Assembly: GCA_947479085.1 (NCBI GenBank)
Contig: CANJYB010000006.1
Coordinates: 62,001 to 126,000, forward strand
Reading direction: 5' to 3'
DNA from: Bacteroidota bacterium
Lineage (GTDB): Bacteria; Bacteroidota; Bacteroidia; 2-12-FULL-35-15
DNA: 64,000 nucleotides
Positions 37,371-59,055 of the stretch are shown here, piece by piece. Position numbers and translations under genes: made by a program. Numbering within the stretch: the first letter of the stretch is position 1; the number at the start of each line of letters is the position of its first letter. The notes beneath the pieces were generated by a model. That model was not told where the DNA came from and did no database searches. It worked only from the letters and a program-made list of their open reading frames with translations.

Positions 37371-37564
37371 TTATTTAAATAATCGTCTTTTCTTTTTTTA
37401 CCTATAAAGAAAACATAAAAACAGCAAATAGTAATGAACCAAAGAGAATAAATAGGCCATTTAAAAATTATTATAATCAATTTGTAAAGGCTCCTTCGCC
37501 ATTGCCAATTTGTCATTATTTACCCAAAAAGCATCCTTAGTTATGCCAAAAGTGCTCCTTTCTG

Positions 37565-37690
37565 ACCTTCCGTCAACCCTTTTTCACCTTCCGCCAGTCC
37601 TTTCCCACCTTCCACCAGTCCTTTTCCACCTTCCGTCAACCCTTTTTTACCTTCCGCCAACCCTTTATAAATTTCCGTTCATCCTTTTTT
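37565..37690 (+). repeat. 21-bp minisatellite, ACCTTCC type
   Basis: ACCTTCC begins at 37565, 37586, 37607, 37628 and 37649, with a degenerate sixth copy near 37670. The part after it varies between GTCAACCC, GCCAGTCC and ACCAGTCC. Confidence 0.85.
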
Positions 37691-37694
37691 TATT

Positions 37695-37775
37695 ACGAAT
37701 AAAACTTCCCGAGTAACGAATAAAAAGGAACCAATAACGAATAAAACTTTTTTATCAGCGAATAAAAAAGAAAGA
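37695..37775 (+). repeat. 21-bp minisatellite, ACGAATAAAA type
   Basis: ACGAATAAA begins at 37695, 37716 and 37737, with a GCGAATAAA variant at 37758. The core differs from the array just upstream but the period is the same. Confidence 0.8.
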
Positions 37776-38720: not shown

Positions 38721-38823
38721 GGGGCGTGCCCCCGATGAAAAATCGGGGTCGGGCTTTCCGCTTCAATCTTTTTTGTGAAAAACAAAAAAGGATTTCCGCT
38801 GCAATCCCTCACGCAACGCTTCG
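38721..38823. repeat. REP-like extragenic palindrome
   Basis: GGGGC-gt-GCCCC overlaps CCCCGAT-gaaaa-ATCGGGG (38730-38748). CGGGCTTTCCGCTTCAATC follows, then a T6/A6 hairpin and GGATTTCCGCTGCAATC. The near-repetition of TTTCCGCT-CAATC and the similarity to 19711-19757 suggest a dispersed repeat family. Confidence 0.6.
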
Positions 38824-52222: not shown

Positions 52223-52494
52223 GTGCAGATGGCGAATGTCATACTTCGTAGCAATTTTCATTATTTCTATTTCTCAGCCCATTCCAAAAATTCCCCTATG
52301 TGGAATCCTATATTCCTTATGTGCCTATGTGTTAAAAAAAACGATACTTGTGGCTGCTTCTTTAATTTGAGAAAAACACTACTTGATACTAAGTCCTTTC
52401 CCTAGTAAATTAAATAATCTATTGTATATTAATTAGTTAATGTTATTAGTTACCTAAATACCCCTCTCAGGAACCCACTTTTTCCATTACAGGA

Positions 52495-52752
52495 CATACC
52501 TTTTTTCATTATATGGGGTACCTTTTTTCATTATATGGGGTAACTTTAATGGTTATATGAGGTACCTTTTTTCATTATATGGGGTAACTTTAATGGTTAT
52601 ATGGGGTACCTTTTTTCATTATATGGGGTACCTTTTTTGGTTATAGGAGGTACCTTTTTTCATTATATGGGGTACCTTTTTTGGTTATATGGGGTATCTT
52701 TTTTCATTATATGGGATACCTTTATTGGTTATATGGGGTAACTTTTTTTCAA
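52495..52752 (+). repeat. 22-bp minisatellite, ATATGGGGTACC type
   Basis: ATATGGGGTA-like units start at 52511 and then every 22 bp to 52731, 11 units, with one partial copy before. Unit ends alternate irregularly between CATT and GGTT. Confidence 0.92.
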
Positions 52753-52889
52753 ACAGAACCTCCCTTTTTTCAAAACCAACCCTCTTTTTCATTCCATTTC
52801 CCATCCTACACTCTCCCAATAAACCCTTATTTTAACAAACATTAGAATTCCATAACGCTCTCATAATCCAAATCATCCATTATTTTCCG

Positions 52890-56728: not shown

Positions 56729-57859
56729 TTAAAACTCTGTGACCACGTTATATAAAGTATCCCTTTCTACAGGGGTTCTTCCTACTTGTTTTATCAAATC
56801 CACCAGTTCCTGGGTAGTCAATGCCGGGTTTTGTTCTTCCGAACCGGCCATGGTATATATTTGGGTCGAATCATCAATAGTTCCGTCCATATCATCCACC
56901 CCAAAAGAAAGGGATAGCTGGGCAGTTGTGCGGCCAATCATAGGCCAGTAAGCTTTAATGTGCCCGAAATTATCCATGTATATACGCGAAATAGCATAAT
57001 TCCTCAAATCTTCAATCACCGAACTTTCCTTAATATGACTCATCTGATTGTCCTTGTTCCTGAACTTTAATGGAATGAACGTATTAAAACCATTGGTCTT
57101 GTCCTGCAGGGTTCTTAGTCGGTTCATATGGTCAATACGATGTTCAAACTTTTCAATATGTCCGTAGAGCATCGTAGCGTTAGAAGGCATTCCCAGGTTA
57201 TGCGCAGTTTCGTGTATTTCCAGCCATTCTGCCGCAGTGCATTTATCTTCACAAATCGTTTTTCTTATTTCTTCATCAAATATTTCTGCTCCGCCTCCGG
57301 GCAATGAACCTTGTCCATGTTCTTTCAAAATCTGCAATCCTTCTTTATAACTCACCTTTGCTTTTCTGCACATATATTCTAATTCCACAGCAGTAAAAGC
57401 TTTAACATGCAAATCAGGACGAATGTCTTTTATCTTTTTAATAAGATTGGCAAAATACATCAATCCCATTTTTGGGTGCACTCCGCCTACAATATGAACT
57501 TCTGTAATTGGTTGCCCGTTATAACTTCGCACTTTCTCCAAAATCTGTTCTTCCGAAAGTTCCCAGCCGCCTTCTTTTTGTTTTAGTAAACGGGAGTAAG
57601 AACAAAATTTACAATCGAACACGCAGATATTGGTAGGTTCAATATGAAAATTACGATTGAAATAAACATTATTTCCATTCTTTTTCTCACGAACATAATT
57701 AGCCAAAGTGCCAAGATAACCGAGTTCTCCTTTTTCATAAAGAAGAACCCCTTCTTCAAAAGAAATGCGTTCGTCAGCATACACTTTTTCAGCAATTAGT
57801 TTTAAATCGTTGGAGATTTTTGAATCAAATAAAACAGAGGAGGTGGTTTGAGATTGCAT
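56729..57859 (-). CDS. mqnE: Aminofutalosine synthase (radical SAM, menaquinone pathway)
   Basis: Joins SAM and a chorismate-derived enol ether to form aminofutalosine in the futalosine route to menaquinone. The radical-SAM cysteines are C79-x3-C83-x2-C86 (NICVFDCKFCSY). VHIVGGVHPKMGLMYF, GQGSLPGGGAEIFDEEIR and a MPSNATMLYGHIE block match MqnE rather than MqnC. 376 aa is normal. The other mqn genes are not in the window. Confidence 0.92.
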   Translation of the reverse strand: MQSQTTSSVLFDSKISNDLKLIAEKVYADERISFEEGVLLYEKGELGYLGTLANYVREKKNGNNVYFNRNFHIEPTNICVFDCKFCSYSRLLKQKEGGWELSEEQILEKVRSYNGQPITEVHIVGGVHPKMGLMYFANLIKKIKDIRPDLHVKAFTAVELEYMCRKAKVSYKEGLQILKEHGQGSLPGGGAEIFDEEIRKTICEDKCTAAEWLEIHETAHNLGMPSNATMLYGHIEKFEHRIDHMNRLRTLQDKTNGFNTFIPLKFRNKDNQMSHIKESSVIEDLRNYAISRIYMDNFGHIKAYWPMIGRTTAQLSLSFGVDDMDGTIDDSTQIYTMAGSEEQNPALTTQELVDLIKQVGRTPVERDTLYNVVTEF

Positions 57860-57877
57860 AAATAAAATATAAGGCTA

Positions 57878-57885
57878 CAAAGGTA
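57878..57885 (-). promoter_or_regulatory. -7 box of mqnE
   Basis: Minus strand TACCTTTG, 18 nt before the ATG. Confidence 0.6.
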
Positions 57886-58017
57886 ATAAAGAAATGACAA
57901 TGATTAATAATTAAGAACTATCCTTATAGTAAGGACTACCTATTAATTAAGGTATTAAAGACTTGCTTAAAAGGGATAATAGGTTAAAAATTATTTTAGA
58001 GGAATGCATAAAAATGG

Positions 58018-58140
58018 TGGAGGAAGACATGAAAGCAGTAAAGGCTCACTCCCCGACAGTAAATACTCACGCTGTGACAGTAAAGGTTCACGCTGTGACA
58101 GTAAATACGTGATCCCAGACAGTATTCATGTCTTCCTCCA
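58018..58140. repeat. 21-bp minisatellite enclosed by a 16-bp inverted repeat
   Basis: TGGAGGAAGACATGAA (58018-58033) is exactly inverted at 58125-58140. Between them CAGTA(AA) starts at 58036, 58057, 58078, 58099 and 58120, an exact 21-bp period, with CACGCTGTGA in the middle units. Confidence 0.88.
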
Positions 58141-58341
58141 GCTTTTAAGTTGAAGTTTTATTAAAGGTATAATTGCACCAATTCATTTTTGCCCCCTTTC
58201 ATTACCTTGGGCTCTTTTGAGTTTCATATTGTTAAGCATGAGAACAAATACCAGTCATATTTTATGTTTCCTGCACCTTTAGTTATGAACCCTGACAGGA
58301 GGTATTAAAAAAACAACTGGCAATTGAACCAATGAACTCAT

Positions 58342-58349
58342 TATCTTTG
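58342..58349 (+). promoter_or_regulatory. -7 box of the response regulator gene
   Basis: TATCTTTG, 7 nt before the ATG; nearly leaderless. Confidence 0.6.
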
Positions 58350-58356
58350 CCGAAGA

Positions 58357-59055
58357 ATGGAAAAGAAAAGAATCCTCCTAGTTGAAGACGAAGAACACCT
58401 GTTAAAAACCATCCGGCTAAACCTGGAATTGGAAAATTACGATGTTACAACGGCAGTTACAGGATATGAAGCATTAAAGGAATTTCGCAAAAGCAATTTC
58501 GATTTAATCATACTGGATGTTATGCTTCCGGAAATGAATGGTTTTGATGTATGCGAAGAAATAAGGAAGGAAAATACCAAAGTACCCGTTCTTTTTCTTA
58601 CCGCAAAGAGTTCAGGAAGCGACAGAGTGCAGGGATTAAAGATCGGTGCCGATGATTACCTTACCAAACCTTTTAATCTGGAGGAATTATTATTGCGTAT
58701 CGAAATTCTTATTCGCAGAAGCAAACCTCATGTAGATACTGCAAATGAATTAACAGTTTATACTTTTGGCAATAGCGAAATTAATTTTGTTACTTACGAG
58801 GTGAAGGACATAAACGGTGATGCTACAGGTATTACCAAAAGAGAAATTGCGTTATTAAAACTGTTGATTTCAAGAAAAGGAGAAGTTGTTTCCAGGGAAG
58901 AGATTCTGGATGCCATTTGGGGTACCGATGTGTTTCCTTCTTCCCGCACTATTGATAATTACATACTCGCTTTTCGAAAATATTTTGAAGAGAACCAGCG
59001 GGAACCGAAACATTTCCACTCCATACGAGGGGTGGGTTATAAATTTACTGATTAA
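58357..59055 (+). CDS. OmpR/PhoB-family response regulator
   Basis: Receiver domain with the acidic pocket E10-D11, phospho-acceptor D54 (ILDVMLPEMNGFD), T82 and K104 (LTKPF). A winged-helix Trans_reg_C domain follows (EIALLKLLISRKGEVVSREEIL to RTIDNYILAFRKYFEE). 232 aa is normal. No histidine kinase gene is adjacent, so it is an orphan here. The nearly leaderless transcript follows the pattern of several other genes in the window. Confidence 0.93.
   Translation: MEKKRILLVEDEEHLLKTIRLNLELENYDVTTAVTGYEALKEFRKSNFDLIILDVMLPEMNGFDVCEEIRKENTKVPVLFLTAKSSGSDRVQGLKIGADDYLTKPFNLEELLLRIEILIRRSKPHVDTANELTVYTFGNSEINFVTYEVKDINGDATGITKREIALLKLLISRKGEVVSREEILDAIWGTDVFPSSRTIDNYILAFRKYFEENQREPKHFHSIRGVGYKFTD

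Follow-up and report, generated by a model that had tools for sequence, protein, structure and literature searches.

The short tandem array lying between mqnE and the divergent gene of a response regulator is regarded here, with moderate confidence, as a young minisatellite of local origin with a step of 21 bp, belonging to a clade-specific population of arrays which share this exact step (often in the form of 42-bp dimers) but no sequence, and having acquired its perfect inverted arms by template switching. The basis of this reading is observational and comprises the structure of the array, its uniqueness, its absence at this place from five clade relatives, the abundance of such arrays throughout the clade, the exactness of their period and the lack of relatedness between their units. 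Minisatellites are usually defined by sequence, whereas in this clade only the repeat length is common, and the question of what sets a minisatellite period becomes directly testable here, either by comparison of gene content between the clade and array-poor sister lineages or through young arrays traceable to their seed.

Architecture of the array and its inverted arms

Positions below refer to the window, i.e., the whole stretch of 64,000 nucleotides subjected to analysis, and the features of the locus are collected in Table 1. Units of the array start at 57994, 58015, 58036, 58057, 58078, 58099 and 58120, the clearest stretch extending over 58036-58105, and TRF assigned to it a period of 21 with a score of 91. 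Within the intergenic region of 497 bp the word CAGTA has precisely five occurrences (58036, 58057, 58078, 58099 and 58120), which bears out the five units counted between the arms in the preliminary description and places each of them 21 bp from the next. Head-to-tail arrangement and a unit size within approximately 10-100 bp attribute the array to minisatellites (VNTR), its copies being 65-84% identical to the reference copy and hence not perfectly repeated.

Table 1. Positions of the array, its arms and the surrounding features in the window
Feature	Position	Strand	Basis or remark
Left arm, TGGAGGAAGACATGAA, 16 bp	58018..58033	+	Within the 21-bp periodic tract
Right arm	58125..58140	-	Exact reverse complement of the left arm; its end coincides with a 21-bp unit boundary
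Tandem array of 21 bp, about seven degenerate units	57994..58140	.	TRF, lag-21 identity, CAGTA positions
mqnE, aminofutalosine synthase	56729..57859	-	TIGR03700, 462.5 bits (cut-off 434.55); flanking, outside the array
OmpR/PhoB-type response regulator gene	58357..59055	+	PF00072, PF00486; flanking, outside the array
Segment of 394 bp missing from G015, the nearest relative (22 bp there)	57909..58302	.	Alignment ends; includes the array and hairpin
Degenerate end (CCCTGACAGGG end) of a dispersed palindromic element	58256..58307	+	About 80% identity to other copies in own genome

The perfect 16-bp inverted repeat announced in the same description is real: its arms, separated by 91 nt, match exactly, and in 2000 sequences generated from the region by a first-order Markov model perfect inverted arms did not exceed 14 bp, a length reached in 3 of them. 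The assumption that the array is enclosed by these arms stood only in part. CAGTA copies do lie between them, but identity at lag 21 already amounts to 13/21 in segments taken from 57991 and 58001 (falling to 4/21 by 58121), and the left arm is therefore situated inside the periodic tract, which continues leftward through it. Past the arms the inverted repeat is prolonged imperfectly over 38 nt with 76% complementarity. Comparison of the left flank with the right flanks of other arrays gave a maximum of 9, against 16 with its own right flank. Folding of the region yielded a predicted -50.5 kcal/mol for RNA (z -4.95; z -3.82 for the other strand) and a predicted -26 for DNA (z -4.13), supporting, at the level of predicted structure, the hairpin with a repetitive loop that had been suggested before.

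Intergenic setting and age of the array

The two flanking genes diverge from the intergenic region 57860-58356, which harbors the array. The corresponding gap is much the shorter in the relatives compared, measuring 123 bp at L054 (G015), 77 bp at L055 (G005), 117 bp at L061 (G014), 85 bp at L059 (G034) and 93 bp at L070 (G004), with MqnE of L054 being 93% identical to that of the window. Together with the window these five relatives compose one clade (SH-aLRT 99 by a quick method, in a tree built from 33 rows of MqnE plus regulator). Since the gap comprises 77-123 bp in all five of them versus 497 bp here, the array is young, and the earlier remark that this locus might show how arrays arise appears fair for a young array in an array-rich clade. 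No intermediate states of the array were seen, which counts against the favored explanation.

The extra DNA at the junction is composite, since its right part (58256-58307) bears a likeness to the ends of a palindromic element dispersed in own genome. This element has the ends CCCTGTCAGGG and CCCTGACAGGG and the inner palindromes CGTCCCTACGGGAC and ACCGATATTT; apart from the tract in the window, its sites were noticed at L044, L048 and L051 in own genome and at L045 in G015, while a short form, reduced to the ends, is located behind the regulator gene of G015 (L216). In one genus-mate (L056 and L161) the mqnE-regulator junction extends over 579 bp and contains apparently two small genes in line, judged by eye as possibly a toxin-antitoxin pair of RelE/ParE type.

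Population of 21-bp arrays in the clade

The census of arrays covered the window together with 400 kb of own genome (G000) and stretches of 17 other genomes, at a TRF score of at least 70 and a length of at least 60 bp. Arrays with a period of 21, 42 or 63 amounted to 55 in the 1.05 Mb sampled from the clade, to which G000 contributed 23 (464 kb), G015 15 (320 kb), G014 6 (58 kb) and G004 9 (93 kb); G034 (1 in 76 kb) and G005 (1 in 41 kb) turned out to be array-poor in what were small samples, and this counts against the favored explanation. The 55 do not include arrays of other periods (14 in G000, 6 in G015 and one each in G014 and G004). Eight members of the genus not belonging to the clade contained none of this class in 305 kb (five arrays of other periods), and four class outgroups none in 320 kb (nine of other periods); at a looser threshold the outgroup G074 showed a single array of the 21/22 class in 80 kb. 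No array was returned from a Markov version of the own-genome sample. Extrapolation from the 21 arrays detected in 400 kb outside the window suggests roughly 200 in own genome as a whole.

Averaged over 46 arrays, self-identity has its maxima at exactly 21, 42, 63 and 84, with 42 higher than 21, no further peak between these and nothing at 7, 10, 11 or 14; for lack of autocorrelation at such lags, an origin from heptamers or from steps of 10-11 bp was rejected. The 32 unit consensuses whose lag-21 identity reaches 0.55 or more resemble one another about as much as shuffled units do, and the best pair, identical in 16 of 21 positions, belongs to neighbors within one stretch. With its exact period and private unit, the array considered here fits the clade type, characterized by a period of precisely 21 or 42. 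Location of the arrays is almost exclusively outside long reading frames (28 of 29 in G000 and 15 of 15 in G015, according to a crude gene call discounting frames made by the arrays themselves), and their gene contexts, assignable in 42 cases, were tandem in 25, divergent in 12 and convergent in 5, tracking intergenic length.

Two further arrays of the window, 37556-37687 (period 21) and 52477-52789 (period 22 (44)), are also found between divergent genes and have unrelated units, two unit types alternating in the latter. Directly after the array at 37556 there is a second one of 21 bp (37682-37766), in which only some half of the unit (AACGAATAA) is preserved, the rest being variable; Flavo-1 RNA (Rfam RF01705, 62.9 bits) was recognized on the minus strand at 38743-38819. 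In G005 an array (L229, 15404-15520) stands after the regulator, at a place where in the window the two reading frames are almost adjacent.

A common period might have been inherited rather than generated repeatedly, if an older 21-bp array located elsewhere had given rise to the present one through transposition or conversion, with subsequent rewriting. The period would go back to a shared ancestor, and the sequence would have drifted under homogenisation within each array. One period for all arrays would then come without any special duplicating process. Two pairs of arrays at corresponding places of G000 and G015 agree with such a course: place and period are kept and the unit is changed both for 37556 versus L219 18002 and for L178 6933 versus L220 13598, the correspondence being weaker for the second pair, where a single flank was aligned. 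We nevertheless hold this scenario rather unlikely, as own genome offers no array with a related unit from which the young one might have come and the units of different arrays are no more alike than chance.

Inverted repeats within arrays and the origin of the arms

Of the 23 inverted repeats with arms of at least 14 present in the own 464-kb sample, 7 overlap arrays, although the arrays, taken together with 30 bp on each side, make up 7.6 kb. Among 61 clade arrays (periods 20-22, 41-43 and 63), a perfect inverted repeat of at least 15 nt was present in 9, compared to 1 for the mirror-repeat control, and of at least 16 nt in 7, compared to 0. Arms are 107-144 bp apart in the array described here, in L359 and L361 (G004) and in L180, and flipped or inverted parts of units were encountered in L180, L193 (flipped core), L359 and L361.

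Three results count against the favored explanation. Among the seven longest inverted repeats, four represent palindromes in or beside units and not distant arms. Of 38 arrays tested for arms in bracketing position, only the present one (16) and the imperfect L177 (15) exceed all mismatched pairings, so long perfect arms bracketing an array are rare. Inverted 8-mers are likewise not in excess within arrays (565 versus 553 in the mirror control); the idea of inverted partners as a general feature of arrays was rejected on this equality, the excess being confined to long ones, and a palindromic unit as a general rule was dismissed with only 4 of 38 arrays at p of 0.05 or below.

In the scheme that we favor, repeated tandem duplication of 21 bp would have grown the array in place, and a strand switch of DNA synthesis inside it would have made both perfect arms, either by copying one terminal unit in reverse or by perfecting an imperfect palindrome. 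Template switching seems the likeliest maker of the arms; it is described as homogenising the arms of inverted repeats and inverting their spacers (PMC8604942). Quasipalindrome mutation by template switch likewise perfects imperfect inverted arms and inverts spacers (PMC7202029, PMC8604942), being known, however, as events at palindromes and not as a feature of 21-bp arrays. In the present case the perfect arms sit in a degenerate array, for which no ancestor possessing imperfect arms was found, and long inverted repeats are in excess in the clade arrays. If the arms did originate from strand switching within the array, the hairpin would represent a by-product of array growth and not a moving device.

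Regulatory, RNA and mobile-element interpretations

Position between two divergent genes and a period of exactly 21 invite the assumption that the array serves as a cis-regulatory or architectural element. Because 21 bp correspond to two turns of the helix, a bound protein would meet every unit on one and the same side, and extrusion of the hairpin as a cruciform could take place between the divergent promoters; slight clustering of conserved unit positions (lag-1 correlation 0.10 versus -0.05 for shuffled units, sd 0.04) is consistent with this. Such a role is unlikely in our estimation, given that array contexts track intergenic length as indicated above, units have no motif in common, and five clade relatives do without an array at the same place between mqnE and the regulator.

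It is very unlikely that the hairpin acts at the level of RNA, as a transcribed structured molecule or terminator. A strong fold is predicted for both strands, but Rfam gave no match at the array, neither terminator-like nor sigma-70-like sites were detected in 57800-58420 by a scan whose scope does not extend to Bacteroidota promoters, and the array is absent from relatives at this place. Moreover, TAnnTTTG-like boxes stand beside both mqnE and the regulator gene outside the array and are directed away from it.

The preliminary description had also offered a small transposable unit with terminal inverted repeats, for which a unique arm would be an adverse result, and this proposal failed. In own genome, which comprises 4.28 Mb in 50 contigs and is 99.4% complete, a search for the 15-nt core of the arm allowing up to 2 mismatches gave 23 places, compared to 20 for the same core read backwards, and the match is exact only at the two arms; the unit with up to 3 mismatches occurs only at its own two places, and the 161-bp element retrieves only itself, all other matches being short, with E of 0.17 or worse. 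No relatives of the element were found in plasmids and phages, and in the class sample of 395 genomes it matched only own genome and, over 44 bp, G326, where the match falls into a coding-like stretch without an array and is taken as chance. The exact 15-mer of the arm core occurred in at least 120 stretches of viral contigs, which by our own estimate approximates the chance level in a large collection. Target duplications, whose search was likewise proposed, do not abut the arms, since the outer bases make no direct repeat and prolong the pairing; a 10-bp direct repeat is available only far beyond the arms (57950-57959 and 58300-58309). Thus, even with perfect arms flanking the array, a place newly occupied relative to five clade members without the insert, and a precedent for such a plan in BrickBuilt (PMC4596501), a MITE of this or similar kind is most improbable for a structure whose arms and unit are single in own genome, whose kin are missing from plasmids, phages and, save the chance match in G326, the class sample, and whose pairing runs on into the flanks with no target duplication.

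Comparison with known repeat systems

BrickBuilt of Porphyromonas gingivalis is presented as a minisatellite within a MITE (PMC4596501), and the likeness consists in belonging to Bacteroidota, in short intergenic tandem units (23 nt in BrickBuilt) and in inverted ends. BrickBuilt constitutes one sequence family of 19 copies with a common leader, tail and IS5-like ends (PMC4596501), and this sets apart the array under study, with its unique 21-nt unit and arms and its unshared ends. REP/BIME elements, being many dispersed copies of one palindrome, differ from the present palindrome, which is single in own genome.

Borg tandem repeats resemble the clade arrays in the presence of many arrays per genome with nearly all units private and of independent recent origin, in absence from close comparators, and in occurrence either between or within genes (PMC9879509). 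The Borg arrays are characterized there as perfect repeats, A-rich, of varying unit length and located in genes in about half of the cases (PMC9879509), in contrast to the degenerate units, fixed length of 21/42 and nearly complete restriction to non-genic DNA in the clade. The present array accordingly shares with the Borg type a unique unit and independent recent origin, but its units are not perfectly repeated. Satellites of Methanobrevibacter ruminantium and Clostridioides difficile are likewise described as many scattered non-homologous arrays per genome (PMC6749651), with no single shared period reported in the part of that work consulted, unlike the clade arrays. The heptamer and TAACTGA direct repeats, known from Bacteroidota and other bacteria, are similar in being intergenic and, in some Bacteroidota, abundant, but consist of one fixed word of 7 nt (PMC4679880), whereas 21-bp arrays display no 7-bp periodicity. 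Our searches of the literature revealed no genome in which numerous arrays share a period but differ in unit sequence.

Possible source of the 21-bp step

We tentatively propose, as a possibility that falls short of an even chance, that some process of DNA copying or DNA packing in this clade imposes a fixed step of 21 bp, equal to two helical turns and giving 42-bp dimers, on newly arising tandem duplications, irrespective of the sequence at the site. Arrays would then be born, rewritten and partly inverted in place, representing satellites defined by period and not by sequence.

RVT_1 reverse transcriptase was not found in G000, G015, G004 or G034, and Y1_Tnp matches are present in 29 of 36 genus genomes, array-bearing and array-free alike. 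SbcD, an enzyme that would cut hairpins, exceeds the cut-off (TIGR00619) in only 2 of the 36; its lack is therefore not special to the clade. The SbcCD hairpin nuclease may thus be missing from most of the genus, and tolerance of hairpins may be genus-wide, which does not explain the arrays. On these grounds none of the three, whether reverse transcriptase, Y1 transposase or SbcD loss, was accepted as a cause. Heptad repeats of coding origin were rejected as a general cause as well, the codon-phase pattern being absent (0.502 versus 0.492 for 35 arrays); open frames are slightly above expectation, 2.29 versus 1.73 per array, and 8 of the 55 arrays have no open frame at all.
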